Assembly: GCA_021300155.1 (NCBI GenBank)
Contig: JAJTID010000126.1
Span: 1 to 47,152, forward strand
DNA length: 47,152 nt
From: Pirellula sp.
GTDB taxonomy: Bacteria > Planctomycetota > Planctomycetia > Pirellulales > Pirellulaceae
Direction of reading: 5' to 3'
The translations under genes and the position numbers were made by a program. Numbering within the stretch: the stretch's first letter is position 1; each line of letters opens with the position of its first letter. Below, in pieces: positions 9,564 through 41,156 of the stretch. The notes beneath the pieces are model-generated. The model did not search any database. It was not told the DNA's origin and saw only the letters and a list, made by a program, of their open reading frames with translations.

Positions 9564-10166
9564 ATGGCAGTCTTGGTCACCAAACCCGCACCTGACTTCA
9601 AAGCACAAGCAGTCCTGAAGGACGGTTCCTTTGCAGAGGTTACCCTCAGTCAATTCAAGGGGAACAAGTATGTACTGCTGTTCTTTTACCCATTGGATTT
9701 CACCTTCGTTTGCCCAACGGAAATCATCGCCTTTTCTGACCGTGTCAAAGAATTCAACGACCTAGGAGTGGAGGTCATCGGTGTTTCCGTCGACAGCCAT
9801 TTCTCGCATTTGGCCTGGAGAAATACGCCGCGAAATCAGGGTGGTATCGGACAGATCGATTACACGTTGGTCGCCGACCTGAACAAACAAATCTCCAGGG
9901 ACTACGACGTCCTGATGGGAGACGCTGTCGCGCTCAGAGGTTTGTTCTTAATCGACAAAAATGGCTTTGTTCGCCACCAAGTCGTCAACGATTTGCCTCT
10001 CGGACGTAGCGTGGATGAAGCGTTGCGAATGGTCCAAGCTCTTCAATTCTTCGAAAAGAACGGCGAAGTCTGCCCAGCCAACTGGCAAGAAGGCAAGAGC
10101 ACGATCAAGCCAACCGTCGACGGTAGCAAGTCATTCTTCAACGCGGAATACTCGGCGAAAGCTTAG
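9564..10166 (+). CDS. Typical 2-Cys peroxiredoxin (AhpC/Prx1 type)
   Basis: The protein reduces peroxides in the cytosol through a peroxidatic cysteine, Cys50 in [10 protein letters not shown], and a resolving cysteine near residue 170 in GEVCPANW. The conserved Pro, Thr and Arg of the family are present ([18 protein letters not shown]). The C-terminal extension after the second cysteine ends in [11 protein letters not shown] and lacks a clear YF hyperoxidation motif. Length is 200 aa, normal for Prx1. GGAG lies 9 nt before the ATG. The reducing partner is not encoded nearby. Confidence 0.93.
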
Positions 10167-10527
10167 ATAGCCTGTTTCGCGTCCGACAAGAGTCTTGCTC
10201 AGACTGTAGCTTTGAACCTTTGCCCCGAGCGGATGGATTTTCCAGGGAGCTATGGATTTTCCAGGGAGTTAATGTCGGCCGGGACAGTTAATGTCGGCCG
10301 GGACAGTTAATGTCGGCCGGGACAATGGTCTCGGCCTACTTTTCACGCAGCGTTGGCTAGTTGGATCGCGAGCAACTAGTCTGCCCGACAATTATTTCCG
10401 CGATTCTTCCTTGGCCGGTTAAGTTCGAACTGCGTAAATCGGTCACCGACTAGGCCTTTATGGGAAACAGCGTTTCGAGTAGGTTCGAAGACCACCTCGC
10501 ACCCTGGATCTCAAGGAAATATTGGCT
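10167..10527. other. Intergenic region with short tandem repeats
   Basis: About 360 bp between the peroxiredoxin gene and moaC without a gene. It holds the two tandem-repeat families listed at 10233-10324. The rest shows no promoter or terminator that I can support. Confidence 0.5.
10233..10324 (+). repeat. Two adjacent tandem repeats (17 bp x2 and 19 bp x3)
   Basis: ATGGATTTTCCAGGGAG occurs at 10233-10249 and again at 10252-10268. It is followed directly by three exact copies of a 19-bp unit, GTTAATGTCGGCCGGGACA, at 10268-10286, 10287-10305 and 10306-10324. The unit carries a dyad TGTC-N6-GACA, so each copy could be a small protein-binding site or hairpin. Confidence 0.85.
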
Positions 10528-11046
10528 ATGTCGTCTTCATCCTCCAAACCTCCGACCAACACCGATTCCGAGACAATGACTCACGTCGATAAACGTGGGG
10601 CAGCTTGGATGGTCGACGTCGGAGCAAAGCCGATTTCGAAGAGAGTCGCAATCGCGTCCAGCAAAGTCGCGATGTCAGCCGAAGCGGCGAGTGCAATCCG
10701 AGCGAACGCACTCGCCAAAGGGGACTGTCTTCAGGTCGCGAGAATCGCTGCGATTCAAGGAACGAAGTGGACAAGCCATTTGATTCCACTATGCCACGCC
10801 ATTCCAATCGATTCGGTAGAAGCACAATGTAATTGGCTCTCCGAAACGGAGTTGGAATGGAAAGTAACGGTAAAGTCGACTGGTAAGACGGGTGTTGAAA
10901 TGGAAGCTCTCTCAGGAGCGAGCATCGCAGCACTCACCGTTTACGACATGTGCAAGGCGATCGATCGTTCCATTACCATTCGCGAAATTTGCTTGATCGA
11001 AAAGTCAGGCGGTGAACGCGGAGATTACGCGAGAGAAATTTCGTAA
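10528..11046 (+). CDS. moaC: Cyclic pyranopterin monophosphate synthase MoaC
   Basis: MoaC converts the MoaA product to cyclic pyranopterin monophosphate, the first intermediate of molybdenum cofactor synthesis. The conserved segments are MVDVGAKPISKRVA, LIPLCHAIPID, the catalytic-site block TGVEMEALSGASIAALTVYD and IEKSGGERGDY. A Ser/Thr-rich stretch of about 18 residues precedes the family N-terminus. AAGGA lies 10 nt before the ATG at 10528; a TTG at 10522 sits 4 nt from it and is less likely. The polyprenyl synthase gene begins 1 bp after the stop, so the two genes are co-transcribed. No other moa or moe gene is present. Confidence 0.92.
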   Translation: MSSSSSKPPTNTDSETMTHVDKRGAAWMVDVGAKPISKRVAIASSKVAMSAEAASAIRANALAKGDCLQVARIAAIQGTKWTSHLIPLCHAIPIDSVEAQCNWLSETELEWKVTVKSTGKTGVEMEALSGASIAALTVYDMCKAIDRSITIREICLIEKSGGERGDYAREIS

Positions 11047-11047
11047 C

Positions 11048-12160
11048 ATGAATGCACCCGAAGCTGGTATCCGTTCCGCAATTGCAAACACATCGGTGCA
11101 CCGAAGAAACGTTCCCGTCCGGCTCGTTCCGCCCGCTCGGTTCAAGGATGTGCGAACGGCACCTCAGCCCGAATTGGGCTACCGGCAAGTACTCGGGTCA
11201 GTCACCGCATCGATTCAATCCGAATTGAACGAAGTCGAGAAATGGATTTCGGATGGTCTCCGAGTTGCTAACCCATCCTTGCAGCCAATGTTAGACCACG
11301 TTCGTGATCTGGGTGGGAAACGTCTGAGACCTATCTTGACGTTGTTGAGTGCGAAAGCCTGCGGCAAGATTACCGAGGAGACGATCCGGCTAGCTGCAGT
11401 TGTAGAGTTGTTGCACACAGCGACACTGGTGCATGACGACGTGTTGGATGGAGCGGAAAAACGAAGACACCGACCGACGCTACATAACCTATGGGGCGTA
11501 CCTGCCAGTGTATTGGTTGGCGATTGGTTATTCACTCATGCATACGGATTGGCGAACCAAGGGGAATCCACTCAGCCCGGCCGATGGATTGCAACCGCAG
11601 CCAAAATGGTTTGCGAAGGTGAGATACTACAAGGGCAAAGCGTTGGGAACTTTGATATTTCAGAAGATGAATACTTTGAGCTGCTGAAAGCAAAGACAGG
11701 TGCTTTGTGCAGCGTCAGTTGCCAATTGGGGGCTTGGTCTGCTGGAGTACCAGCCGATTGTCATGAACGGTTCGCTGAGTTTGGGATGACTTTAGGTCTG
11801 GCGTTTCAGATATACGACGATTGGTTAGATGTGTGGGGTGACGATTCCGTTGCTGGAAAGACGCTGGGTACAGATCTAGCGTCCTTCAAACCGACTCTTC
11901 CTGCGTTGCACGCGATAGCACTGAATCCTCGTTGCGAATCGGACCTAACACCCCGACTTCGAGCCAAGGATGCTCTCGCTAGTCTAGAGCTTCGCAACTT
12001 GATGGAACTCTCGGGTGCGTCGGGTTACACGCTGCAAAAAGCTCGATCGCTAGCATCAGACGCATGCAATTGTGTGGAAAGTGTTGGAATCCGCTTGGAT
12101 CGGACCGTCGTCGAGCAACTGGGAAGATTGGCGGTTGCAGCAACTCACCGCCCTGGATAA
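11048..12160 (+). CDS. Trans-polyprenyl diphosphate synthase
   Basis: The enzyme condenses isopentenyl diphosphate units with an allylic diphosphate to make a prenyl chain for quinones or carotenoid-type lipids. The two Asp-rich Mg-binding motifs are clear: DDVLD near residue 130 (after LLHTATLVH) and DDWLD near residue 257 (after GLAFQIY). GGKRLRPIL and the KTLGTDLASFKPTLPAL element are also present. The residues before the first motif suggest a medium to long chain product, but chain length cannot be read safely. The start 1 bp after moaC is used. The N-terminal 40 residues are not conserved. Confidence 0.88.
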   Translation: MNAPEAGIRSAIANTSVHRRNVPVRLVPPARFKDVRTAPQPELGYRQVLGSVTASIQSELNEVEKWISDGLRVANPSLQPMLDHVRDLGGKRLRPILTLLSAKACGKITEETIRLAAVVELLHTATLVHDDVLDGAEKRRHRPTLHNLWGVPASVLVGDWLFTHAYGLANQGESTQPGRWIATAAKMVCEGEILQGQSVGNFDISEDEYFELLKAKTGALCSVSCQLGAWSAGVPADCHERFAEFGMTLGLAFQIYDDWLDVWGDDSVAGKTLGTDLASFKPTLPALHAIALNPRCESDLTPRLRAKDALASLELRNLMELSGASGYTLQKARSLASDACNCVESVGIRLDRTVVEQLGRLAVAATHRPG

Positions 12161-12255
12161 TGCAATAATTGACCCCGGTGGGTCTGTGGGGTATGCTAGA
12201 TTTGTTCTCGGAGTGCGTCACACCCCAAGGCTGGAAGCAATTGGAACTATCCAAA

Positions 12256-12287
12256 CCCGACGCGTAAGCGAGGGACTGTCCCTCACA
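12256..12287. repeat. GACGCGTAAGCGAGGGAC motif with inverted arms
   Basis: In the gap between the polyprenyl synthase and the large cytochrome gene, CCGACGCGTAAGCGAGGGAC is followed by a T and GTCCCTCAC, giving the inverted pair GAGGGAC/GTCCCTC (12270-12276/12278-12284). From memory, very similar GACGCGTAAGCGAGGG strings are scattered in intergenic DNA of many planctomycete genomes; this was not checked here. It may be a REP-like dispersed repeat. Confidence 0.5.
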
Positions 12288-12402
12288 GGCTATTCTCGTT
12301 GGGATGGTTTAACTGCATTCGCTACTGCCTGAACACCACACAACCCACCTAAATTATCAACATGGCTTGTCCCCGGAGCCATCTTTCGGACACGGTCTTT
12401 AT

Positions 12403-15400
12403 ATGTCGCTTGGATTTCATTGGCGATGGCTAGTTTCACTTGGCCTGATCGTCGCAACCACATGTTTGCTTGACGGACGGTTTGCTATCGCCGACTCAGG
12501 CGCAACGGTTAGTTTCTCGAAAGACATTTATCCAATTCTTCAAGCGAATTGCATGGGATGTCATCAACCCGCCAAGACACAGGGTGGCTACTTGATGACT
12601 GATTTTGAATCTCTATTGGCCAAAGGGGAGTCGGGAAATCCGGCCATCGTCCCTGGCAAATCGAGCGAGAGCTACCTGATTCACGAGATCGTCCCAGTCG
12701 ATGGCAAGGCGGAGATGCCAAAGAATGGCAAACCGCTTCATGCCTCTGAAATCGAATTGATCCAACGTTGGATCGATCAAGGGGCGAAGAACGATTCGAC
12801 ACGCTCGGAACCGAAGTATAGTGCGAGCCGACCTCCGCAATATGTTCGACCTCCAACCATTTCCAGTTTGCGTTTCTCGCCGGACGGGTCCGAGTTAATT
12901 GCGACGGGCTTCCACGAAGCCTTGATCTTCAAAACGGAATCGTGGCAGCTCAGCAAGCGATTGGTCGGCATGAGTCCTCGGCTCGAATCGATTGCCTACT
13001 CACCGGATGGCAAATGGATAGCTATCGCTGCAGGTGAACCTGGCGTTCGCGGGGAGTTGCAGATTTGGAATAATGAGACGAAAGAACTGGAGGATAGTTA
13101 TTCGATCGCGGCCGATACTCTTTTCGGTGTCAACTGGTCTCCCGATTCCGAGTTGATCTCGTTCGCTTGCAGCGACAATTCCGTGCGTGCCGTGAACCGA
13201 CAAGGTGTTCAGAAACTATTCCAACGCGTTCACGAGGATTGGGCGCGATCGACAACCTTTACGGTGGATGGCAAGCATCTGGTTTCTGCCAGCCGCGATA
13301 TGACGGTGAAGCTGACCGAAGTTGAAACAGAACGATTCATCGACAACATCACTTCGATTACGCCTGGTGCATTGCGCGGTGGCATGCAAGCAGTCGCGGT
13401 TCATCCAACGCGAAATGAGATCGTTGTCGGTGGCGCTGATGGTTCGCCAAAAATCTATCGAGTGTTTCGGCAGACCGCCCGAGTCATCGGTGACGATGCC
13501 AATCTCATTCGCCAACTAGAACCGATTCCGGGGCGTATTTTCGATGTTGCTATTAGCAAAGATAGTCGCTTCCTTGCCGCAGCATCGACTGTTGACAATC
13601 AAAGCACCATTCGTGTCTGGGCTTACGATGTTGATGCTCAATTGCCTGATGATATCAAAAAGATCCAATCCAAACGTAGCCAGCAACGAACGGAGGAAGA
13701 GAAGAAGAAACTAGAGACCTACGTCACCGCGCAGCCAGCAGTTCTCGCGACGTGGAACGTGGCGGATTCAGCGATCTACTCGATCGCTATCGATGACAAG
13801 GGTAGAGTTGCGTCGGGCGGATCCGATGGCAAAGTGCGAGTCTGGAACATCGCGGACCAACAATCGGTGGCTAGCTTTGACACGACCCCACCAAACTCGA
13901 ATGCGACCGCGACCGCGGCGTCGATGTCCGAGGGGCGAACTGCTCGTCTTCAACAGATTGCCGCTTTGCATCAATCAGAACGAACCGCCCCCGAGTCGCT
14001 TCAGGAACTTCACCAGTTCCCGATATCCAAGTTGAGTGGGATTGAAGTCTCCCCCTCGGAAATCAAGATGAACGCTTGGAACGAATCGGTGCAGTTTGTT
14101 GTTGTGGCGAAACTTGACTCTGGCGAGTTGAGGGATATTACGAGGCTTGCTAAATACTCTAGCTCGAGCGCTGTCGTTTGGACCTCCGACCGTGGCTGGG
14201 TACAGCCGCTGGAGTCGGGCGAGTGCAAGATCATCGTCCAGTTTGCGAATCAAGCGATAACAGTACCTGTGACTGTCGATCTATCGAAGCCCCAGTCTGC
14301 AAACTTTATCCGCGATGTGAATCCGGTTCTTTCGCGTTTGGGTTGTAACTCGGGAACGTGTCACGGTGCGCAGGCTGGTAAGGGAGGATTCAAACTCTCG
14401 CTGCGCGGTTACGATCCCATATTTGATATTCGCTCTTTGGCTGACGATCTGGCTAGCCGCCGACTCAATACAGCTTCGCCACTCTCTAGCTTGATGATGA
14501 CGAAACCGCTGGGCAAAGTTCCACACGTCGGCGGCAAGCTCTTTCAGGAGAGCGATTCGCATGCATTGATTATCAAACAATGGATCGCTGAAGGAGCTCG
14601 GGTAGACTTGACGACTCCGCGTGTTCAATCGATTGCGTTGAGCCCGACAAATCCCATTTCGCCAGATGCTGGTACGGTACAGCAGTTCCGGGTGATGGCA
14701 ACCTACACCGACGGCACGACACGCGATGTGACTCGCGAAGCCTTCGTCGAATCGGGCAATGCAGAGGTTGCAGGCGTGCAAGAGGGTGCGAGGATTGTGG
14801 CAGTGCGTCGCGGTGAAGCTCCGATCTTGGCTCGTTACGAAGGTGCTTATGCCGCAACAACATTGACCGTGATGGGAGATCGAACCGGGTACGCTTGGAA
14901 ACCATCGCCAGGTAGCAATGTGATCGACAACTTCGTCGCGACCAAGTTGGAGAGAATGAAGATCGAGCCGTCGAACCTCTGTACGGACAGCGAATTTTTG
15001 CGGCGAGCAACGATCGATTTGACAGGTTTGCCACCGACCGCAGATCGCGTTCGATCTTTCTTAGCCGATACGACTCCGTCGGCTCAAAAGCGAAACAATC
15101 TGGTTGACGAGTTGGTGAGTAGCGAAGCGTTCGTCGATCACTGGACCAATAAGTGGTCGGATCTGCTTCAAGTGAATTCCAAGTTTTTGGGTAAGGAAGG
15201 CGCGAGCGCTTTCCGGGATTGGATTCGGTCGAGCGTTGCGAGCAACAAACCGTATAACCAGTTTGTGCATGAGATCGTCAATGCGAGCGGATCGAACAAA
15301 GAGAACCCAGCTGCGTCTTACTACAAGATCTTGCGAAACCCTGAAGACACGGTGGAGAACACGACCCACCTGTTCCTCGGCGTGCGATTCAATTGCAATA

Positions 15401-17532
15401 AATGCCATGACCATCCCTTTGAACGATGGACCCAGGACCAATACTACCAAACGGCTGCTTACTTCACTCAAGTTACACTGAGCAAAGACGAAGCGTCTGG
15501 AGGCAAGACCATCGGTGGAACTGCAGTGGAAGGTGCAAAGCCCCTCTACGAAATCGTTGCTGATTCTGGCAAGGCGGAAATGAAGCATCAACGAACACAA
15601 CAGAACGTTGCGCCGAAGCTCCCTTTCGATGCAGAGTATTCGGTACCCGAGGGTAGCTCGCGTCGCGCCGTGTTTGCTGCATGGCTGACGAGCTCGAAGA
15701 ATCCTTACTTTGCCAAGAGCTTCGTTAATCGCATGTGGGGATACATGTTAGGCAAAGGACTGATTGAACCGATCGATGACATCCGTGCTGGCAATCCAGC
15801 TAGTATCCCAGAGTTGCTCGAGTTTTTAGAGAAGGATTTTGTTGCAAACAACTTCGATGTGCGACATATCCTGAAGACGATTTGCAAATCCGAAACGTAT
15901 CAACGTTCGATCCAAACGAATTCTTGGAATGCAGACGACGATCGCAATTACTCGCACGCCATGCCACGTCGATTGCCCGCAGAAGTTCTCTTCGATGCGA
16001 TACACATGGTAACAGGTTCGGAGATCAAATTGCCGGGCCTCAAGCCGGGGACTCGCGCTGCAGCGCTGGCAGACGCAGATGCCAATCTGCCAGATGGATT
16101 TCTGAACAATTTGGGACGACCACCCCGCGAAAGCGCTTGCGAGTGCGAACGATCGAGCGAACTGCGATTGGGGTCGGTCATGGCTCTCGTGAGTGGTCCT
16201 ACGTTAGGGACAGCGATCGCGGATCAAGGGAACTCGATCGGCAGTCTCGTGGAACAGTTCCAAGAAGATCGGCAGTTGATCGGTGAATTGTTTATGAGGG
16301 TACTCAACAGGCCAGCCACCGAGAAAGAGGTGGATGCCTCGACGACGGTGATGGCATTTATCGAGGCGGATCATGCGAAGCTCGCCAAGAGCCTGGAAGA
16401 ACGAGAAGCGTGGTGGGTCGAAGAGAAGCCCAAACGGCAAGCCCAATTGGATGCCGATAAAGCACAAGCGGAAAAAGATCTGATCGCGAGACAAGATGCG
16501 ATTCGCGCTGACCGAGAGGCAGCCGAGAAAGCTCGCTTGGAGCGATTGGCGGCCGCAAAGACCAGTATGGAATCGTATGAGTCGAGTATTCAATCCAAAC
16601 TGGACGAGTTTATTGCGAAAAGAAAAGATCAACCACAGTGGACAACATTGCTAGCCACCAAAGCGAAGTCTTCCAACAAGGCGAAGCTGATTCCACAAGC
16701 GGATCGATCGATCGTGGCTCAAGGTGCTGCGGACAAAGGAATTTATACGATCGACACCACAGTGCCGTTCGCGTTCAACTCGATTCGACTCGAAACATTG
16801 ACGAGTCCCGAACTCAAGGGGAATGGACCTGGCCTTTCGGACGTGGGTAATTTTGTCATCACCGAGTTGGAGCTTTATGCAGGGAACCCAGCGAAGCCGA
16901 AAGAGATGCGAAAACTCAAGATCAAACGCGGTTTGACCGATTTTGACCAAGGTGGATTCTCGGCAGCAGCCGTTTATGATGACAAAACCAACGACCAGGG
17001 TGGTTGGGCTGTTTCGGGTGCTACGGGTGCGGAACACTGGGCGGTATTCGAATTGGCGGAACCAGCACAATTGGCCGCAGGCGAAACGCTTCAATGGCGA
17101 ATCCATCAGTTTCATAACGCCGACAAACATCGCTTAGGACGCTTTCGGTTGAGTATCGCTAGCTTTACGGGCGAAGTACCGATCGGGCTTTCCGAAACGC
17201 TGACTGCCTTTGCGAACTTGCCGAATGAAGATCGAAACGAACAAACGACCAAAGATTCGCTAGCTTACTTCAAAGCTAGCTCCGGCGAATACCTGAAACT
17301 AAAAGGTGCTTTCGACAAAGAAAATCGTCCGCTACCTGAAGACGAACAAGTGGTTGCGCTGAAGAAGCGAATCGAAAGACTCTCTGCTCCGTTGGTCGAC
17401 GATTCTCGATTGGTGCGATTGCGAAACGATGTGAAAGAGAGTGCAAGCCAGAAGGCCAAAGCCCGACTGACAGCCGCTGAAGACATCACTTGGGCACTGA
17501 TCAACAGTCCAGCCTTTTTGTTCAATCACTAA
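12403..17532 (+). CDS. Large secreted planctomycete cytochrome: heme + WD40 + DUF1549/DUF1553
   Basis: A 1709-residue exported protein. After a signal peptide (about 1-31) comes a c-type heme domain (CMGCH, Cys50; PSCyt1), then WD40 propeller repeats (about 140-480), a short coiled coil and a bacterial Ig-like segment. A second heme-like motif follows in LGCNSGTCHGAQAGKGGF (near 648, CX4CH) and then DUF1549 (about 840-1040) with a third motif, CNKCHDHPF (near 998). DUF1553 starts around 1085 (NPYFAKSFVNRMWGYMLGKG) and finishes at the extreme C-terminus (ALINSPAFLFNH). Inside it sit an Ala/Glu/Lys coiled coil (about 1325-1410) and a carbohydrate-binding-like beta segment. The start at 12403 gives a good signal peptide. 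Function is unproven; it pairs with the DUF1501 gene 63 bp downstream. Confidence 0.88.
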   Translation: MSLGFHWRWLVSLGLIVATTCLLDGRFAIADSGATVSFSKDIYPILQANCMGCHQPAKTQGGYLMTDFESLLAKGESGNPAIVPGKSSESYLIHEIVPVDGKAEMPKNGKPLHASEIELIQRWIDQGAKNDSTRSEPKYSASRPPQYVRPPTISSLRFSPDGSELIATGFHEALIFKTESWQLSKRLVGMSPRLESIAYSPDGKWIAIAAGEPGVRGELQIWNNETKELEDSYSIAADTLFGVNWSPDSELISFACSDNSVRAVNRQGVQKLFQRVHEDWARSTTFTVDGKHLVSASRDMTVKLTEVETERFIDNITSITPGALRGGMQAVAVHPTRNEIVVGGADGSPKIYRVFRQTARVIGDDANLIRQLEPIPGRIFDVAISKDSRFLAAASTVDNQSTIRVWAYDVDAQLPDDIKKIQSKRSQQRTEEEKKKLETYVTAQPAVLATWNVADSAIYSIAIDDKGRVASGGSDGKVRVWNIADQQSVASFDTTPPNSNATATAASMSEGRTARLQQIAALHQSERTAPESLQELHQFPISKLSGIEVSPSEIKMNAWNESVQFVVVAKLDSGELRDITRLAKYSSSSAVVWTSDRGWVQPLESGECKIIVQFANQAITVPVTVDLSKPQSANFIRDVNPVLSRLGCNSGTCHGAQAGKGGFKLSLRGYDPIFDIRSLADDLASRRLNTASPLSSLMMTKPLGKVPHVGGKLFQESDSHALIIKQWIAEGARVDLTTPRVQSIALSPTNPISPDAGTVQQFRVMATYTDGTTRDVTREAFVESGNAEVAGVQEGARIVAVRRGEAPILARYEGAYAATTLTVMGDRTGYAWKPSPGSNVIDNFVATKLERMKIEPSNLCTDSEFLRRATIDLTGLPPTADRVRSFLADTTPSAQKRNNLVDELVSSEAFVDHWTNKWSDLLQVNSKFLGKEGASAFRDWIRSSVASNKPYNQFVHEIVNASGSNKENPAASYYKILRNPEDTVENTTHLFLGVRFNCNKCHDHPFERWTQDQYYQTAAYFTQVTLSKDEASGGKTIGGTAVEGAKPLYEIVADSGKAEMKHQRTQQNVAPKLPFDAEYSVPEGSSRRAVFAAWLTSSKNPYFAKSFVNRMWGYMLGKGLIEPIDDIRAGNPASIPELLEFLEKDFVANNFDVRHILKTICKSETYQRSIQTNSWNADDDRNYSHAMPRRLPAEVLFDAIHMVTGSEIKLPGLKPGTRAAALADADANLPDGFLNNLGRPPRESACECERSSELRLGSVMALVSGPTLGTAIADQGNSIGSLVEQFQEDRQLIGELFMRVLNRPATEKEVDASTTVMAFIEADHAKLAKSLEEREAWWVEEKPKRQAQLDADKAQAEKDLIARQDAIRADREAAEKARLERLAAAKTSMESYESSIQSKLDEFIAKRKDQPQWTTLLATKAKSSNKAKLIPQADRSIVAQGAADKGIYTIDTTVPFAFNSIRLETLTSPELKGNGPGLSDVGNFVITELELYAGNPAKPKEMRKLKIKRGLTDFDQGGFSAAAVYDDKTNDQGGWAVSGATGAEHWAVFELAEPAQLAAGETLQWRIHQFHNADKHRLGRFRLSIASFTGEVPIGLSETLTAFANLPNEDRNEQTTKDSLAYFKASSGEYLKLKGAFDKENRPLPEDEQVVALKKRIERLSAPLVDDSRLVRLRNDVKESASQKAKARLTAAEDITWALINSPAFLFNH

Positions 17533-34680: not shown

Positions 34681-36132
34681 TCAGTACTTTGGGAAAATAA
34701 CGTGGCTAGGAAAACGTTCCTCCAAGTTGGTTCCATCGTTGAGATATTCCTCGCGCGGCACGTCCACTTGATGCCAACTCGTGGGACGAACGCGGACGAC
34801 ACGTCCAGGGCGAATTCCCTCAATGATAAGGTCTGTTTCAAACCGAATTTGAATACCACTGCTGCCCAGAGGCACATCTCCGTCGTTCTTGGTGACTTCC
34901 AAGAGGGTCCCTTTAGAAGCCATGTGTGCGGGTCCGTAGGCCCCGTGAGTATGCTTTAAAGTGTTCTCGACCGCATTCATCATAGCTGGAACATCCCTTT
35001 GGAAATCCGCGTAGAGAGATGAGTCCATGCCGCCGAACAAAGTTGCGGTCACCGTCGCGTTGCCGAACTTACCGTACTCAACAGCATCAATCCATGCAGG
35101 CATCCAGCGACTGCGGATGAATGCCTTGTGCAATTCGGTTTGGCTTCGCGCGGCGCGTTGCATCGCCGTATCGTCGAGCCAAATGTCCGATATGTGAAAC
35201 CGAGTGAATACACCGCCAGGCGTAGGCTTCCATGTAATCCCAAGCATCGCCATTTGACCGCCGAGAGATTTCTTCCCGTCCGCTGGCCAAATTCCCTCGG
35301 CAATCAAATCTTCAATCGACAGCCGTTCGCGGCCTCGCCATATTCGAATTGCAGCATCAAAAGTTATCGATTCTTCTGTTGCCTTCCCTCTCGCCCCTTC
35401 CTTCGGTTCACGACTGGCGACGATCGTGCCTTCGTTCTTCTTGACGGAAATCTCCTTGAGCATCCATACTTTGCCCTCGCGCAGGCAGTAGCTTGGCTCG
35501 TCCTCCAGGAGTAGGACATGGTTTTCCGCAGGAAAGATCCCAGCGCCACGATTGTGGTTCGCATCCTTCGTTTTGTTCTCGACAGGCAAAACAGGAACCG
35601 CGGAGGTCTTCGGGTCGGGAGGGAGGAAAGCCAGGACGTGCATGACCGTACCCAACGGTATGTCGCGTAAATCCGCCGGTGCGTTGTGATAACGTACCAT
35701 GCCATAAGGGAGCATCGCGATGGGATGCGGATCATTGCGAAAGAACATCCCGGATCCTTGCACGCGGATACTGCCACGCCGATTGGCATGATCCACAAAC
35801 ACCAGCTCACCACGATACGCATGCGCCTTCTCTACCGGTGGAAACTTTCCCACTTCGGGATGAAAAGGCTCTGCTCGTGGTTCTTTGTCCTTCGTTCCCG
35901 GTTCTTCGCTGAAGGCGGCAAAAGGGACAAAAAACCAAGACCCAAGAACTACGAACCAAAAACAAATCGCAAAGATGCACAGAGCGGCGAGCCGACGAAG
36001 ACGCCAGGATTCAGTCGCGAAGCGACGCCAGCAAATAGCTCCGGGTGTAAGCCCGCAGAAAAAGATAGCAACACCGATCAAGCCGCGAAGCGGCGACAGC
36101 AAATAAAGTCTATCCATTTTGTTCGTCTTCAA
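34681..36132 (-). CDS. Hypothetical planctomycete protein with a repeat-derived N-terminus
   Basis: I do not recognise the family. The body (about residue 95 onwards; AYRGELVFVDHANRRGSIRVQG, MLPYGMVRYHNAPADLRDIPLG, RIWRGRERLSIEDLIAEGIWP) looks like a secreted or periplasmic all-beta protein. The N-terminus is odd: from the ATG at 36132 the frame first runs through the downstream end of the RAYT element (REP sequences at residues ~11-39), then through a 7-bp repeat array that encodes a hydrophobic stretch (CFWFVVLGSWFFVPFAAF, residues ~57-74). The original start appears lost or replaced. A non-ATG start near residue 45 would give a short signal peptide. No Met lies between residue 6 and about residue 128. 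Confidence 0.6.
   Translation of the reverse strand: MKTNKMDRLYLLSPLRGLIGVAIFFCGLTPGAICWRRFATESWRLRRLAALCIFAICFWFVVLGSWFFVPFAAFSEEPGTKDKEPRAEPFHPEVGKFPPVEKAHAYRGELVFVDHANRRGSIRVQGSGMFFRNDPHPIAMLPYGMVRYHNAPADLRDIPLGTVMHVLAFLPPDPKTSAVPVLPVENKTKDANHNRGAGIFPAENHVLLLEDEPSYCLREGKVWMLKEISVKKNEGTIVASREPKEGARGKATEESITFDAAIRIWRGRERLSIEDLIAEGIWPADGKKSLGGQMAMLGITWKPTPGGVFTRFHISDIWLDDTAMQRAARSQTELHKAFIRSRWMPAWIDAVEYGKFGNATVTATLFGGMDSSLYADFQRDVPAMMNAVENTLKHTHGAYGPAHMASKGTLLEVTKNDGDVPLGSSGIQIRFETDLIIEGIRPGRVVRVRPTSWHQVDVPREEYLNDGTNLEERFPSHVIFPKY
35880..35963. repeat. Heptamer arrays, convergent pair
   Basis: On the plus strand four 7-bp units (GTTCTTT, GTCCTTC, GTTCCCG, GTTCTTC) run from 35880 to 35907. 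Six units in opposite orientation, ending in C on the plus strand, run from 35922 to 35963 (for example CAAGAAC, TACGAAC, CAAAAAC). The two could pair into an imperfect hairpin. They lie within the N-terminal coding part of the hypothetical gene. Confidence 0.7.
36014..36040 (+). repeat. REP copy 1
   Basis: GTCGCGAAGCGAC (a 5-bp hairpin with GAA loop) followed by GCCAGCAAATAGCT. It is identical to the reverse complement of 36603-36629. Next to it GGG(N6)CCC gives a second small hairpin at 36043-36054. Confidence 0.85.
36082..36105 (+). repeat. REP copy 2 (diverged)
   Basis: GCCGCGAAGCGGC followed by GACAGCAAATA. It keeps the hairpin and the CAGCAAATA tail of copy 1, but both stem arms have changed in a compensating way (GTCGC/GCGAC to GCCGC/GCGGC), so the hairpin is preserved. 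Confidence 0.75.
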
Positions 36133-36571
36133 AAAGATGCTCTAGTCGAAATTCAATGCCGTGGCGTTCCAAGAAGTCAATGTACTCTTCCTGGAATGTT
36201 TTTGTTTTGTGATGTGCTTCTTGATTCCGGATGTACCTGCAAATGGTTTCGACTCTATCGAAGCTGACCGTAAATGCGCCATAGCCATTTTGCCATTCAA
36301 ACGCATCAAGAACTCCTTCTTCTGTTATCCATTTTGATGCATTGGCCTTTTCATCGCGTACCACATCCGAAACTGCCAATGCAGGAGACAAACCTGCAAG
36401 TATGTGGACATGATCTTCGACACGGCCTATCTCAATCAGGTGCCCTTTCTTACCGCGAAGCGTCCCGCCGATGTACTCGTAGAGCTGCTCTTGTACATGA
36501 TTCTTGATCGAGCGTGTCCGGTATTTCGTAGCGAAAACGATGTGGTAGGTTAAACGTGTGAAACTGCCCAT
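36110..36571 (-). CDS. REP-associated tyrosine transposase (RAYT, IS200-like TnpA)
   Basis: The 153-residue protein has the HUH single-strand nuclease fold of IS200/IS605 TnpA: TYHIVFATKYR at the start, the HUH pair in EDHVHILAGLSP, the GYGAFTVS block and the catalytic region ICRYIRNQEAHHK with Tyr and Gln in Y-x3-Q spacing. These proteins cut and join single-stranded DNA at REP hairpins through a 5'-phosphotyrosine. The gene is complete with the active residues in place, so it may be functional. It is surrounded by REP sequences. Length is normal for the family. Confidence 0.9.
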   Translation of the reverse strand: MGSFTRLTYHIVFATKYRTRSIKNHVQEQLYEYIGGTLRGKKGHLIEIGRVEDHVHILAGLSPALAVSDVVRDEKANASKWITEEGVLDAFEWQNGYGAFTVSFDRVETICRYIRNQEAHHKTKTFQEEYIDFLERHGIEFRLEHLFEDEQNG

Positions 36572-36602
36572 GCGGCACCTCCATCTGCGGGCTGTCGCCC
36601 AC

Positions 36603-36629
36603 AGCTATTTGCTGGCGTCGCTTCGCGAC
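36603..36629 (-). repeat. REP copy 3 (inverted)
   Basis: The reverse complement is identical to copy 1 over 27 bp, including the GTCGCGAAGCGAC hairpin. It lies upstream of the transposase start, and CTGCGGGC...CCC (36585-36600) forms the inner hairpin. Confidence 0.85.
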
Positions 36630-36633
36630 TAAG

Positions 36634-36654
36634 TAAGAACTACGAACCACGAAC
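36634..36654 (-). repeat. Heptamer array beside the RAYT element
   Basis: Three 7-bp units read on the minus strand as GTTCGTG, GTTCGTA and GTTCTTA, starting 4 bp outside REP copy 3. Two further degenerate units may continue to 36668. Confidence 0.6.
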
Positions 36655-36672
36655 TAATCACAAACAACGTTT

Positions 36673-38046
36673 TCATAACTCAACCACCGTATTGCTATCG
36701 CCAAACTTGTCGATCTCGACGCCCATGCGTTGAGCCATCATGAGCAACAGGTTACTCATATGCGCATCAGCGTTCGCGGGTCGACTGCAGAGCTGGTAAT
36801 GCGCCGTCGTTAGCGCACCGTCCGCACCTAATGCGTAGCCTTGGAATCCTTTCGCCGTCTTATTGAAGTCGACATGGCTACCATGCTTGAGCCCGATGTC
36901 TGAGCCACCAGCGAGTACCAACGGCAGATTGGCATTTCCATGACTGTGACCATAGGACATGCCGCTACCGAAAAGGGCCATCGTTGAACCGATCAATGGC
37001 TGTCCGTTTAGATCTTTCGTCTCCGCGAGACGAGTCAGGAAGTAACTGAATTGCTCAATGGCAAAGGTGTCGTAGTTCGTCAACTTCTCCATGTAACCTG
37101 CATCGCCCCCGTGGTGACTTAGCTGATGACGCGATTCGGTAATACCGATCTCTGGAATAGAGAAGGCGTCCCCCTCGCCCCCCAAGCTGAATGTCGCCAC
37201 ACGAGTAACATCTGTTTGGAAGGCGAGCACGATTAGGTCATAGACGGTCCGGAAGTAGTCACCGGCCATAACAGCAGCGATATCGCGATTGGTTCGCTTT
37301 CGATCGGCTTCGGAAACGACAGGTAAAGGCGAATCGAGCCAAGCATCCGCTCGTCGCGTGCGAATCTCTGCTTCGCGGACGGAGGTGAGGTATTGATCCA
37401 TGCGTCCTTTGTCTGCAGCTCCCATCGCCTGCTCGAGTCGGCGAACTTCAGCAAGATTGGCATCCAGCACGCTTCCCTTTCGTCGCAACGATCGTCGCTG
37501 CGCAGCCACGCCCCCTTTCGGTCCCTCAAACAGAGAAGCGAATATTTCGCTACAACGACGCATGGCAGGCAATCGAACTCCATCGGCGGTCCAACCCAGA
37601 GACTCTCCTGTCAAGGCGACCTCCATCGAAGGATAACGAGTATGCTTGGCAGTGATCTCAGCCATCTTTTGGTCCACCGAGATCGTATTCTTATCCGAAG
37701 GACCGAGCTTGCCACCCGTCAGCCAAACGGAAATGCAATTGTGATGATGGCTCAGTGCCCCGGGGTGATGCAATCCACTGATGGGCGTTATCACATCGCG
37801 GTGCTTCTCTAGTGGCTTTAGAGACCGAGAGAACTGGTACCCTTCGCCTGATGTGGTGAGCTGATAGTTGAGCGAATGGACACCGTTCGCTAGATAGATG
37901 AACGCGCTGCGTCGCGGCGCAACGGTTTGTTGTTCGACAGCACGAAGCGGTATCATGCACTCTAGAAACGGAAGCGAGATGGAAGTCCCCAGAGCGCGAA
38001 GCGCGTGACGTCGATCGATGAGCCAGGATTGGGAAAGATAGTTCAT
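36673..38046 (-). CDS. DUF1552 family secreted protein
   Basis: DUF1552 proteins are exported planctomycete proteins found beside DUF1592-group cytochromes. The N-terminal signal has a twin-arginine-like start ([20 protein letters not shown]). The mature part has family blocks such as [52 protein letters not shown] and [20 protein letters not shown], and ends [21 protein letters not shown]. The fold is distantly related to sulfatase/DUF1501 proteins and the function is unproven. The gene begins 10 bp after a heptamer array and is separated from its DUF1592 partner by the four-helix-bundle cassette. Length is 457 aa. Confidence 0.88.
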
Positions 38047-38056
38047 TTTTTTATTA

Positions 38057-38238
38057 GTTCTTAGTTCTTGGTTCTTAGTTCTTGGTTCTTGGTGTTTAGT
38101 GTTTAGTGTTTAGTGTTTAGTGTTTAGTGTTTAGTGTTTAGTGTTTAGTGTTTAGTGTTTAGTGTTTAGTGCTTAGTGCTTAGTGCTTAGTGCTTAGTGC
38201 TTAGTGCTTAGTGCTTAGTGCTTAGTGCTTAGTGCTTA
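38057..38238 (+). repeat. Array of 26 heptamers in three homogeneous blocks
   Basis: The 182-bp tract is made of 7-bp units without interruption: 5 GTTCTTR (38057-38091), then 11 GTGTTTA (38092-38168), then 10 GTGCTTA (38169-38238). Within each of the last two blocks all copies are identical and the switches are abrupt. On the minus strand the GTGYTTA units read TAAACAC/TAAGCAC, which place TAA in every frame once in 21 bp. The array ends the four-helix-bundle gene and borders the DUF1552 start. Confidence 0.95.
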
Positions 38239-38590
38239 AGAGATAGCGGATGAATCCACCGACTTTGGATCTTGTCTTCGCGGCTTGCTCGTAGATAGCA
38301 TCGAATTCATCTTCCGAAAGGTACGCTTGGTCTAAAGCAACGTAGAGCTGACTTTGAACCTCCGAGCAGGAACGTTGAGAATATCGCAGGAACTTGATGA
38401 ACTCGGCATTAGAACCGCCGTCAAATCCTTCGGCTATGTTGTGCATCGCAGATCCTGACGCCCGAGTAATCTGATCCCGGAGACCAAAGTCTTTCGCAAA
38501 CGCTCCTCGCATTGCCACTGAATAAACATTCTTCGTCAACTCCCTTGCCAATTGCCAGCCCTCGATTTCTTCAAAACGCCGAATGCTCAT
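38222..38590 (-). CDS. Four-helix-bundle protein (S23/IVP family)
   Basis: The 122-residue protein matches the four-helix-bundle family (23S rRNA-intervening-sequence protein, TIGR02436): FEEIEGWQLARELTKNVY, LRDQITRASGSAMHNIAEGF, SNAEFIKFLRYSQRSCSEVQ and AYLSEDEFDAIYEQA are the helices. Homologues include Avd of diversity-generating retroelements; the protein alone has no known enzymatic activity. The last residues (STKH) and the stop are encoded by the heptamer array. Upstream, four AAGGA motifs come from a second array, the nearest 9 nt before the ATG at 38590. It sits between the DUF1592 and DUF1552 genes. Confidence 0.88.
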   Translation of the reverse strand: MSIRRFEEIEGWQLARELTKNVYSVAMRGAFAKDFGLRDQITRASGSAMHNIAEGFDGGSNAEFIKFLRYSQRSCSEVQSQLYVALDQAYLSEDEFDAIYEQAAKTRSKVGGFIRYLLSTKH

Positions 38591-38597
38591 TTACCAA

Positions 38598-38692
38598 ATT
38601 CCTTGTTCCTTGTTCCTTGTTCCTTGTCCTTCGTGCTTGGTGCTTAGTTGGTAACGAAGAACCAAGAACAAGGAACCAAGAACCAAAAACTC
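38598..38692. repeat. Heptamer arrays as inverted pair with ribosome-binding motifs
   Basis: Seven plus-oriented units (GTTCCTT x3, GTCCTTC, GTGCTTG, GTGCTTA and an initial partial one) occupy 38598-38646. Units in opposite orientation (GTTCTTG, GTTCCTT, GTTCTTC read on the minus strand) occupy about 38655-38692. The arms 38606-38633 and 38655-38682 are inverted repeats agreeing at 23 of 28 positions, most differences giving G-U pairs, with a 21-nt loop. Confidence 0.8.
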
Positions 38693-38693
38693 C

Positions 38694-41156
38694 TTAACGT
38701 TTCTTCATCAACTCCGACATCGCCACAGCGCGTACGATATCCTTTACACCGTATGCTCTTTTCTTCGCTTCCGCTTGAATGGAATCTAGGTCTTCTTGGT
38801 CATCAACAGTCAACACGCGGCGAAGCGCGTAAGTGCAAAGATGCTCGATGAATGCCCTCGCGACCTTGTCCTGATCTTCCAGGAGCAATCGTTTGAAGTC
38901 GACCGAATCCTTGAAGGACTGGCCACTGGGCATCAAGCCTGAGGAATCGATCACTGGATCCTCACCTATTCCCTTGGCTACTTTTTCGTGCGTGCGCCAT
39001 TGTCCAATCGCATCATAGTTGTCCCAAGCGATTCCTAACGGATCGATCTTCGCGTGGCAAGCAGCACAATTCGCGTTGCTGCGGTGAGCCTCGATCTTCT
39101 TGCGAATCGTCGCTTTGGGACTGTCTGGAGGATTTGGTTCAATCGGATCCACATTGGCTGGCGGAGGTGGTGGGCGTTTGTTGAAGATCGTTTCACTAAG
39201 CCACACACCGCGGTGAACCGGGCGTTGTCGAGTGCCATCGGATGTGAGCCCTAATACTGCCCCCATCGTCAATAAACCACCGCGATGGTGATCCGGGGTC
39301 AAAGTCACACGTTGAAAGCCGTCACTCTTCGGTTCCGGTAATCCATAGAAGTCGCATAGCCGGGCATTCGCCATCGTCCAATCAGAATCGATAAAGCGGT
39401 CTATTGGCAGATTGTTATGAAACACTTCACGGAAGAACTCGACAACCTCTGTACGCATGCTTGTCTCCAGCCATGCGTCATAGTTCGGATAGAGTTTTCT
39501 ATCCGGAGGAAACATTCCCAGGCGATGCAATTGCAGCCATTGCCTAGCGAAGTCATCGACAAACCGGCTCGTCTTGCTGTCCATCAAGAGTCGATCGATC
39601 TCCTTCTCCAGCCCCTCACGGTTTGCACTGGCGAGATAGCCTTTCTCAGCAGCCTTATAGAGTGCTTCGTCGGGCATCGAACTCCACAGAAAATACGAAA
39701 GCCTCGTAGCCAATTCCCAATCGTTGAGAAATTCACGAGCAACTGGATTCCCTTCGACTATGTAGAGAAAGTGTCTCGCTGTCAGGACACCGTGTAGGGC
39801 AACTCGGAAAGCATCAGCCGTCTTCTCACCGGCTTGGCGTTCCGATTGGTAAGCTAACAGATAGTCCGCCAGTTCTTCTTTCTTCACATATCGCCGCCAA
39901 GCTCGTTCGGCAAAGCTTTGAAGATAATCGGCAACCAGCTCTGGAGTCGCGTCATCGGGCGGTAGAAGACCTGCGCGCAACGATTTCTCCTCGTCCGTCA
40001 CCAGCGGTCCTTCCCATTCGATCCAATCGAGTAGCACCGTGGAGAATAGTCCGTTCCCTTTATCGTCGAACATCTGCGGCGCGTTCGGGTTCAAGAGTTG
40101 GGTTTCACTACTATGCGTGAAAACATACGAGGAGCTATTGAGTGCGTTGCGAAAGGCAGCTCCACCTCTTCTGTCGACGATATCTGTTGCCACGACGCAG
40201 AAGTCCAACGATGTCGGCATCTCGAGAAACACCTCAAACTCGTACACTTGCGGTTCGTCTTCCGGAGCCGTGAGATCAAATTCGATAAGCCCCTCGACTG
40301 TTTCTTCGCTGGTCCTCTTGCCGATGCTCAAATGTGCTGGTTGACCGCCAAGCGGACGGATACCGCTGGCCTGGATGCGAACTTTGTAGAGACCGCTATG
40401 CTGCGGACCCGTCTTTCCGAACCAGTTGGGAGAAAGCGCGTTCTGCACACTCCCGGGGTAGAGTAGATATCGCAGCGGCCGCTTGATACCGAACCGATCC
40501 AGCGCTTCTTGCTGAGACTTTCCTCCTCGATATCGCAACTCAACAGCCGTCTTGCGCACTTTGCGGACTTCACCCGAGGCAGCATTCAATGCACGATCCA
40601 GAACCAGATCCGCCGCGCGGTAATAGCGATCCACATGCGATGGTGAAAGGGACAATTCTGAGCCAATGCGTTCAAACCCGTGCCACAGACTATCCTCGTT
40701 CAACTCCCCAGGCTTCGTCGGATCGTAACGCACACCGAGAAGATCATAGACTGTATTTTGATACTCCTTGCGACTAAGGCGATAATGCGTGACAGCCGGA
40801 CGCGAAGCCATCCTCGCCGCTCTCCCTTGTTTGATCAGTAGATCGAGATTGGTAACAAAGTTTGCAATCTCCTCCTGGGTTGGTTGCTTTTCCGTTTTCG
40901 GTGGCATCTCGCCAGAATTGATCTGCTCGATCACTTCTGCCCAGTGATGCGCATCTACGCCGATCTTAAAATCGCGGGAAAGTTGATCGACCCGCAACTC
41001 CCCTTTCTCCTTATCCGGCCCGTGACAGCTAACACAATACTTCACGAGAAAAGCCTCAAACGGCTCCTCCCCTTGTGCTGAATAGAAAGCACCAAGCAAG
41101 GCTACCATTGCTAAGACTGTGCGGGCGACTTCTTGCGAATAGGAATGGATTGGCAT
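38694..41156 (-). CDS. DUF1587/DUF1592/DUF1588/DUF1585 planctomycete cytochrome
   Basis: A signal peptide (about residues 1-30) leads to a c-type heme domain ([14 protein letters not shown] near residue 42). DUF1587 follows ([19 protein letters not shown]), then the central DUF1592 region ([20 protein letters not shown]), DUF1588 ([19 protein letters not shown]) with a second heme motif [13 protein letters not shown], and DUF1585 at the end ([17 protein letters not shown]). The order is the standard one. The DUF1552 gene downstream is the usual partner. Function is unproven; a role in oxidative attack on polysaccharides or in surface electron transfer has been proposed for such pairs. Length is 820 aa. 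Confidence 0.9.

Follow-up and report, generated by a model that had tools for sequence, protein, structure and literature searches.

Four-helix-bundle genes between opposed heptamer arrays: a probable small mobile DNA element of an overlooked type in several bacterial phyla

A gene for a four-helix-bundle (4HB) protein was found between arrays of 7-nt units in a 47,152-nt stretch of Pirellula sp. DNA (hereafter, the window). Members of this gene family from several bacterial phyla were found in the same setting, at sites left empty in close relatives, and the arrangement has the look of a small mobile DNA element that has so far been overlooked. The explanation that we consider probable is a small mobile hairpin element, with the 4HB gene in the loop and inverted arrays of 7- to 9-nt units as terminal inverted repeats and stem, resembling an rRNA intervening sequence (IVS) but located outside rRNA.

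The element of the window (38052..38693, minus strand, ends approximate) is located between a DUF1592 gene upstream (38694-41156) and a DUF1552 gene downstream (36673-38046), both on the same strand as the element. Its outer left (5′) arm (38655..38692, minus strand) consists of about five 7-nt units, GGTTCTTG-like in the gene sense, and adjoins the stop codon of the DUF1592 gene; its right (3′) arm (38057..38238, minus strand) consists of 26 head-to-tail 7-nt units and stops just short of the DUF1552 start codon. The 4HB gene (38222..38590, minus strand, 122 aa, PF05635/TIGR02436) has its final codons within the right array. The calculated pairing of the outer left arm with the right array amounted to −48.4 kcal/mol, whereas 200 mononucleotide shuffles averaged −22.7 kcal/mol and did not go below −34.2 kcal/mol, and by this arm pairing the window element possesses complementary ends enclosing an S23 open reading frame (ORF). 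The strongest left array of the window is direct, not inverted, relative to the right array, and folding of the whole element was only modestly better than that of shuffled sequences (z = −2.47; 1 of 20 shuffles was equally good). An inner left array (38598..38646, minus strand) is oriented oppositely to the outer left arm, and the two together could form a local hairpin (−42.2 kcal/mol). The window gene is thus accompanied by three arrays: outer left, inner left and right.

All six heptamer tracts listed in the initial annotation (35880-35907, 35922-35963, 36634-36654, 38057-38238, 38598-38646 and 38655-38692) were present, and Tandem Repeats Finder reported period-7 arrays at 38054-38238, 38599-38631 and 38653-38690. 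Their confinement to one region of the window was confirmed by a self-match scan of the 47-kb sequence (stretches of 28 positions with 19 or more equal at a given lag; tract 35880-35907 is too short for it), in which lag 7 gave five places, all inside 35922-38694, lag 6 gave one, and lags 5, 8, 9, 10 and 11 gave none. Lowering the cut to 17 resulted in four merged places for lag 7 and also four for lag 5. Tracts 35922-35963 and 36634-36654 scored 19/28 each; they are weak, yet above other lags in the same comparison. Period 7 is special in the window. Across the 6.46-Mb genome as a whole, a degenerate pattern of three units matched two places, the window arrays and an array on another contig (C183:5865-5906) that lies about 35 kb from its closest 4HB gene; the control, the same pattern reversed, matched three times.

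The assignment of the protein as an S23/IVP-family relative of the diversity-generating retroelement (DGR) protein Avd was borne out by profile and structure searches. Against the family profiles (PF05635, TIGR02436) its scores were 102.4 bits, with a curated cut-off of 33.8, and 96.8, with a cut-off of 24, and its AlphaFold2 model (pLDDT 95.7) matched the fold of XCC0516 (2gsc) with a TM-score of 0.88, an rmsd of 2.2 and an E-value of 1.9e-5. The match to Avd (PDB 4dwl; DGR RNP 8ub7) had a TM-score of 0.73 by query length and a Foldseek E-value of 0.02, at about 10% identity. The 4HB protein is under purifying selection: dN/dS was 0.03 for the window gene against its homologs at two loci (L075 and L079; dS near saturation, L077 left out) and 0.09–0.32 in five closer homolog pairs. 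Of the 199 genomes sampled from the planctomycete phylum, 102 had a PF05635 match, and such genes also occurred in loci of many phyla; the function of the S23/IVP family is given as unknown in the consulted part of PMC4990558.

Co-occurrence of arrays and 4HB genes, which the initial annotation had set as a test, was found at 28 of 29 one-per-genome loci of the planctomycete phylum (a 7–9-nt tandem array within 250 bp of the gene), compared with 30, 4 and 41 of 1480 windows of 270 bp for periods 7, 8 and 9, this background not being limited to intergenic DNA and, for period 9, being partly coding. Arrays were located on both sides of the gene at 23 of these 29 loci and were also inverted at 20. 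This set comprises the 30 top-scoring genomes with a locus (of 102 with a match) minus one repeated locus, L051, and it leans to typical members because it is the highest-scoring part of the 102 genomes. In the cross-phylum set, an array was present at 76 of 80 loci, on both sides at 57, and on both sides and inverted at 51; these are the best 80 of 584 confirmed loci, which were found by conserved peptide patterns and by their similarity to a single query, with phylum groups assigned from record titles. Periods 7, 8 and 9 were represented at 74, 25 and 10 of 105 4HB genes, and periods 4, 5, 6, 10, 11, 12 and 13 at 4, 1, 11, 2, 1, 4 and 3 of them, in a set where two genes are counted twice (L051 repeats L089) and ten come from the window or its genus, several of these being orthologs at one and the same site. 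Within the genus, an array accompanied 35 of 52 4HB genes and two arrays accompanied 22, re-fetched loci (e.g., L285/L311 and L305/L312) being included.

The general association thus stood; the strict rule that arrays are tied to 4HB genes did not. Arrays also occur without the gene (C183:5865, the second gap of L068, and L154), and a divergent second 4HB subfamily from three genomes (G001, G013 and G189) carries hexamer arrays or none, with two-sided period 7–9 arrays at 0 of 22 loci. Eight loci of a further genome (G175) have period 7–8 arrays; together, these 30 loci with 36 genes lie outside the headline counts, L054 excepted. At the same time, the array–4HB link is general and the array–RAYT link is not.

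The arms share an architecture and not a sequence. The inverted arm match exceeded the direct one in 66 of 76 cases, the 5′ arm was G-rich in 139/158 and the 3′ arm C-rich in 140/160. Arms paired better with their own partner than with the arms of other loci at 124 of 135 two-sided genes (out of 190), and in 29 of 34 same-site ortholog pairs, which are not independent. The units are locus-specific and differ from element to element, which rules out a one-unit genome-wide repeat. Unit identity was 0.52–0.56 where the 4HB proteins shared less than 60% of their amino acids, 0.63 at 60–70% and 0.84–0.94 above 70%. Units are mostly complementary between the arms of an element, yet element-specific, and they change in concert. 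Additionally, the elements tend to sit in sense between co-directional genes: by crude longest-ORF calls, 62 were in sense with both neighbours and 5 antisense to both (both neighbours could be assigned for 101 of the 135 genes), and at 11 distinct sites of annotated plasmids these arrangements were found 8 times and twice, respectively.

Comparison of orthologous loci, as proposed in the initial annotation, yielded sites lacking the cassette, both at the window site and in Nostocales plasmids, and its impression of a mobile-looking cassette was supported. In relatives, the window site holds this 4HB gene, two unrelated 4HB types, remnants, or nothing, with element-free gaps of 33 and 55 bp in two of them (L068 and L078); this one orthologous gap holds three 4HB types within the genus, and array copy number varies among close relatives. 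In one filled/empty pair (site 1) of Nostocales plasmids about 97% alike, the element is cleanly inserted with an exact duplication of 5 bp, GTAAT, and there the arrays extend to both ends of the element as terminal inverted repeats. The picture is suggestive at site 4a, where the duplication is one base off, and not clean at sites 2, 3, 4b, 5 and 6; a pair from the genus (L306/L323) has about 85 bp replaced, with the duplication absent. In Trichormus variabilis ATCC 29413, an element gene is located on plasmid C (60378-60743). The empty gaps at plasmid sites 1, 2, 4a and 4b (a few to 13 bp) contain no array, so that gene and array arrive together. One 4HB family (79–100% amino acid identity to L390) with RAGTCAG-like units occupies three plasmid sites, and one element is present at unrelated loci of a single genome (L037/L087). 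At L406, arms without a gene were found at a site filled elsewhere; heptamer hairpins without a gene are relics, at least in part. The site of the G195 element was sought in three genomes and was held by one, the source itself, and an empty site for the G011 element was sought in a family that contained only G011. The arrays, which had been suggested to be landing sites or by-products, are better read as the element's own arms and ends.

According to the hairpin-element explanation, the two opposite arrays of 7–9-nt units would be terminal inverted repeats and, once transcribed, both strands of a long stem, whose loop would carry the single gene for an S23/IVP-family protein with the fold of DGR Avd. 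By analogy with rRNA IVSs, the stem would fold in the host transcript and be cut by RNase III, and this cutting would make insertion tolerable. The 4HB protein would bind the stem RNA; a relative with a solved structure is a pentamer. Movement would need an enzyme supplied in trans, either a reverse transcriptase (RT) or a DDE-type transposase/integrase; a search among Y1 transposases and RTs found no mobilising enzyme. RT (PF00078) had five matches in the Pirellula genome and none on the window's contig, C6, and within the genus RT and 4HB genes do not track each other (G208 has 4HB without RT, G216 RT without 4HB, and G211 neither).

A bolder extension, which we offer tentatively and rate somewhat below even chances, is a widespread and so far unrecognised class of minimal mobile elements, "heptamer hairpins", with terminal repeats of a fixed build rather than a fixed sequence, whose complementary tandem arrays of 7–9-nt units would be made or corrected from the element's own RNA, with an Avd-like 4HB oligomer guiding a trans-acting RT. 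Such a class would take in, as members or as relics, rRNA IVSs together with the trnL P6b stem and the heptamer pairs known from Xanthomonas and Nostoc; ordinary insertion into operons would then account for the published link between IVP genes and cas operons.

Among the alternatives, which partly overlap with the preferred explanation, a MITE-like passenger, whose terminal repeats would be structural and which a DDE enzyme would move in trans, RNA playing no role, is unlikely but has the best prospects. Inverted ends, the exact 5-bp target duplication and the gene-less arms of L406 agree with it; however, end sequences that vary by element are not fixed for enzyme recognition, and the orientation bias of 62 to 5, the G-rich 5′ arm and the conserved protein suggest a role for transcript and protein. 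It is less probable still that hairpin and 4HB protein are a domesticated regulator tuning the downstream operon gene, mobility being rare and past, although this may coexist with the hairpin-element explanation for some copies: long persistence at orthologous positions of several lineages and purifying selection on the protein point that way, but presence/absence with replacement by unrelated types within one genus, and presence/absence among plasmids about 97% alike, do not.

Template switching in quasi-palindromes is a known mutational process. It could keep the two arms alike in ordinary intergenic heptamer microsatellites that grow by slippage and in which the 4HB gene merely lands, an explanation that we regard as improbable. 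Arrays do occur without the gene and differ in copy number between close relatives, and the portion of PMC4692102 consulted reports an excess of heptamers in the intergenic DNA of bacteria and, for Xanthomonas, their frequent arrangement as inverted pairs. Against this stand the array-free empty plasmid gaps, the arrays at 28 of 29 4HB genes versus 30 and 7 of 1480 background windows for period 7, and the tracking of 4HB lineage by the unit.

The RAYT (Y1 transposase) gene (36110..36571, minus strand), which the initial annotation had treated as part of the system, is an incidental neighbour outside the element. The tracts around it were placed correctly, but those on its far side (arms 35880-35907 and 35922-35963) form a heptamer hairpin without a 4HB gene (35880..35963, minus strand), which encodes the signal-peptide-like start of the gene downstream and has counterparts in five relatives, each without RAYT. 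The short tract at 36634..36654 (minus strand), past the DUF1552 stop, is perhaps a piece of the 35922-35963 array severed by RAYT insertion, since sequence is common to both sides of RAYT. No RAYT match was found at this place in the loci of 14 relatives, and five of these (L068, L070, L075, L077 and L079) keep arrays in the gap. A period-7 array lay within 250 bp at 3 of 20 located RAYT/Y1 loci (30 fetched), one of the three being the window, and no Y1 and 4HB matches among those listed for 24 other genomes of the genus, compared by eye, were within 3 kb of each other, the nearest listed pair being 3.4 kb apart (G199:C179). To our knowledge, Y1/HUH transposases leave no target duplication, which further disfavours a RAYT role. 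A joint RAYT–4HB system with arrays as landing sites or by-products, suggested by the 1.7 kb between the two window genes and by tracts of the same unit around RAYT, is thus highly improbable given the RAYT-less relatives with arrays, the 3/20 association and the lack of close pairs.

Recognition of 4HB genes as cargo of discrete polymorphic hairpin elements would provide PF05635 with a genetic context and suggests an origin for rRNA IVSs and for part of the bacterial heptamer repeats. The presence of 4HB genes within cas operons, for example between cas6 and cas4, would likewise have a simple explanation, and the filled/empty pairs are material for studying element movement.

In the open-licence PMC papers, as far as their text was covered, the only earlier description of 4HB/S23 genes in heptamer arrays was the Coxiella IVS. 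RAYT/REP elements resemble the present case in the RAYT gene near the window element and differ in that the arrays are not tied to RAYT genes. The window protein shares the fold of the DGR protein Avd, but DGR membership needs an RT beside the Avd-like gene, and the window's contig has no RT match. The heptamer repeats of Xanthomonas and Nostoc, in the part of PMC4692102 consulted, are likewise intergenic with period 7, and inverted pairs occur in Xanthomonas; in the present elements, by contrast, units vary by element and a gene lies between the arms, and a keyword search of that portion turned up no mention of S23 or of four-helix proteins. The Nostoc trnL intron P6b stem likewise has complementary arms of 7-nt repeats, one motif class having been repeatedly replaced by the other, but it lies within a group I intron and its loop has no gene (PMC4476775, in part). 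Unlike rRNA IVSs, which lie in rRNA helices, the present elements are located between protein genes, tandem arrays of units peculiar to each element make up most of their arms, and one insertion has a 5-bp target duplication; 12 loci, one of them L113 and the other 11 from the cross-phylum set of 80, were examined and gave no rRNA match, and an IVS inside an rRNA gene is excluded for the window, where the site is between DUF1592 and DUF1552. At the same time, the consulted part of PMC4990558 describes IVSs, e.g., that of Coxiella, with an S23 ORF in the loop of an RNase III-cut stem with complementary ends and tandem heptamers next to the ORF, and the Coxiella-type IVS of 428 nt is similar in size to the elements of 409–423 bp at plasmid site 1 and of about 640 bp in the window.

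All six heptamer tracts reported in the initial annotation (35880-35907, 35922-35963, 36634-36654, 38057-38238, 38598-38646 and 38655-38692) were present, and its claim that the window holds no other such tract stood up to a self-match scan, in which lag 7 gave five places (at least 19 of 28 positions matching), all within 35922-38694. Under the same cut, lags 5 and 8-11 gave none and lag 6 gave one; a laxer 17/28 cut yielded four places at lag 5 too. Period 7 stands out in the window. Short tandem repeats at 10267-10324 and 4435-4481 have units of 19 and 15 bp, unlike the heptamers. Throughout the 6.46-Mb genome, a three-unit pattern matched only the window arrays and contig C183:5865-5906, where a GTTCTTA-type array separates two convergent ORFs and no four-helix-bundle (4HB) gene is close by; the reversed control gave three matches.

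The 4HB gene (38222..38590, minus strand) lies between DUF1592 and DUF1552 genes, all on one strand, and its 122-aa product matched the PF05635/TIGR02436 profiles. The predicted model (pLDDT 95.7) superposed on 2gsc with a TM of 0.88 and on the diversity-generating retroelement protein Avd (4dwl) with a TM of 0.73 and E of 0.02, bearing out the kinship with Avd proposed earlier. Codon comparison with the orthologs L075 and L079 gave a dN/dS of 0.03 at a dS of ~2.6, near saturation; five closer 4HB pairs gave 0.09-0.32.

The association of such genes with short-period arrays proved general. PF05635 was matched in 102 of 199 planctomycete-phylum genomes, and arrays within 250 bp of 105 4HB genes from 100 loci had period 7 in 74 cases, 8 in 25 and 9 in 10 (periods 4, 5, 6, 10, 11, 12 and 13: 4, 1, 11, 2, 1, 4 and 3; periods 14 and 16 are echoes, as multiples of 7 and 8). 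The best period was identical on both flanks of 76 of the 105 (53, 17 and 6 at periods 7, 8 and 9). When co-occurrence was checked with the best gene from each of 29 high-scoring genomes, a set leaning to typical members, an array was found at 28/29, and on both flanks at 23/29, against 30 of 1480 background windows at period 7. These 270-bp windows, drawn from all DNA and not intergenic DNA alone, covered 400 kb of eight phylum genomes (4 and 41 windows at periods 8 and 9); since each gene has two flanks, about one gene in ten would carry a period 7-9 array by this background. The same amount from one genome of the window's genus gave 7, 11 and 11 of 1480 at periods 7, 8 and 9. Windows at least 600 bp from the 4HB gene in the same loci showed period 7 in 6.7% (105-gene survey) and 6.8% (cross-phylum loci). 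The latter set, the best 80 of 584 loci found by protein similarity, spread over 15 phylum-level groups and likewise leaning to typical members, had arrays at 76/80 and on both flanks at 57/80. In the eight-genome background, a single stretch, L148 (G088), accounts for 13 of the 20 stronger period-7 arrays. Its part 9815-16967, ~7 kb, is dense in such arrays around duplicated ORFs, one of which looks RAYT-like by eye, and has no 4HB match.

The two arms behave as pairing partners. Among the 76 genes with matching period, the inverted arm orientation was better than the direct one in 66, equal in 2 and worse in 8; these eight include the window and three orthologs, whose left flank bears an extra inner array and whose outermost left arm is inverted relative to the right array. 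In the window, the pairing energy of this outermost arm with the right array is -48.4 kcal/mol; shuffled sequences averaged -22.7 and went no lower than -34.2. The whole element (~38052..38693, minus strand) only modestly beats shuffles in folding (z -2.47, 1/20 as good). Three arrays in this arrangement recur in L384, a cyanobacterial element. The mean pairing energy is -39.6 kcal/mol between an element's own arms and -16.1 between arms from different loci of equal period, with own arms the better partners in 124/135 two-sided genes. Because own arms are also the better partners in 29/34 pairs of same-site orthologs, several of these with changed units, the arms evolve in concert, through selection for pairing or through copying. 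In gene sense the 5' arm is G-rich (139/158) and the 3' arm C-rich (140/160). Array units follow the protein lineage, with a mean unit identity of 0.52-0.56 below 60% aa 4HB identity, 0.63 at 60-70% (36 pairs) and 0.84, 0.94 and 0.93 above 70% (7, 4 and 2 pairs).

Comparison of orthologous loci, with and without the cassette, covered 14 loci showing both neighbours (the window and 13 relatives). The window's 4HB type occupies four (the window as L067, L075, L077 and L079), a second type with 27% aa identity and GTTAGCT-like units two (L070, L071), and a third with AATGGGT-like units two (L072, L073), with remnants of it in two more (L074, L080). L069 retains arrays only. L068 and L078 are empty, their neighbours lying 33 and 55 bp apart, and in L081, the most distant relative, the gap measures 140 bp and contains no 4HB gene. 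The next gap holds GTTCTTG-type hairpins without RAYT in five relatives (L068, L070, L075, L077, L079), and a search of 14 relatives' loci gave no RAYT match, so the RAYT gene (36110..36571, minus strand) drops out of the array system in which it had been placed. Since L068 has arrays in this gap and no 4HB gene in the first, the arrays do not depend on 4HB or RAYT genes at the locus today. At 35880-35963 and in these five orthologs, the heptamer hairpin is translated and supplies a signal-peptide-like N-terminus to the protein encoded downstream.

The cassette that the initial annotation proposed around the 4HB protein does look mobile, but the RAYT link was not borne out. One genome carries two copies (L037/L087, 94% aa) at different loci, with 444 bp of homology starting and stopping within the arrays; L318 and L319 have 693 bp in common, arrays included, and no further common stretch by blastn. 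Nostocales plasmids allowed filled backbones to be set against empty ones. At site 1 the insertion is clean and has duplicated 5 bp, the empty junction AAAAAGTAATTAACAAATAA in L391-L393 becoming AAAAAGTAAT-element-GTAATTAACAAATAA in L390 and L395; the duplication, the one clean case, spans the upstream gene's stop codon. At site 4a (L400 vs L410), TTCTA on both sides, with one base differing and the array itself similar to TTCTA, is suggestive of a target duplication; no exact duplication was found there. Filled and empty sites 2, 3, 4b, 5 and 6 gave no clean insertion; at site 3, L406 holds arms without the 4HB gene. A single 4HB family (79-100% aa to L390) with RAGTCAG-like units occurs at sites 1, 4a and 5, and sites 4a and 4b, in neighbouring gaps of a single row of genes, are separate insertions. 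The empty/filled pair L306/L323 from the window's genus shows ~85 bp replaced and no duplication.

A second 4HB subfamily, multi-copy in genomes G001, G013 and G189, is accompanied by hexamer arrays or by no arrays at all, and none of its 22 loci there is two-sided at period 7-9. Its relatives occur in the window's genus, where 52 4HB genes have an array at 35 and on both flanks at 22. The subfamily was seen at these 22 loci (L248-L276 minus those of G175), at L295-L301 and at several of L320-L328; its copies are numerous and scattered (25 matches in G001), it seems to have moved recently, and its ends may be better defined.

By crude ORF calls, 101 elements lie in sense with both neighbours in 62 cases, antisense to both in 5 and mixed in 34. 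On annotated plasmids, the element shares its direction with both neighbours at 8/11 distinct sites, for example at cas6/cas4, at an AAA-ATPase/ParB pair and at transfer genes. At two further sites, one with ribonucleotide reductase and one with secretion genes, it runs antisense to both neighbours, and the last site is mixed. The cas6/cas4 site belongs to a type I-D CRISPR operon on a Pseudanabaena plasmid (L384:1-6360). This placement agrees with published reports of IVP genes within cas loci (PMC3936711; PMC10910872).

Taken as a whole, the element is probably a small mobile hairpin element, similar to an rRNA intervening sequence (IVS) and lying outside rRNA, a confidence slightly tempered because the headline set is the high-scoring part of the 102 genomes with a match and the second subfamily fails two-sidedness at 22/22 loci. 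Such an element would be transcribed by read-through, its transcript would fold and probably be cut by RNase III, and its 4HB protein would be a putative binder of the element RNA. As for movement, Y1/HUH chemistry is not known to leave a 5-bp target duplication, so that at site 1 speaks against this chemistry and for a staggered cut. A reverse transcriptase (RT) route may be suggested by one feature, the Avd fold; RT presence across the window's genus is uninformative on this point. Contig 1 of G204 carries eleven scattered RT matches of equal score in a 465-aa frame, which may be a group II intron that spread recently.

The accessible text of the open-licence PMC literature searched gave no statement of a general link between 4HB genes and heptamer arrays. 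Individual components have been described: heptamer inverted pairs in Xanthomonas (PMC4692102), complementary arms of 7-nt repeats in the trnL P6b stem (PMC4476775) and, in the Coxiella IVS, an S23p ORF with tandem heptamers upstream, a terminal-repeat stem and RNase III cutting (PMC4990558). As far as that account goes, the present element resembles the Coxiella IVS in its S23/4HB ORF, heptamers and stem, and differs from it in lying outside rRNA.
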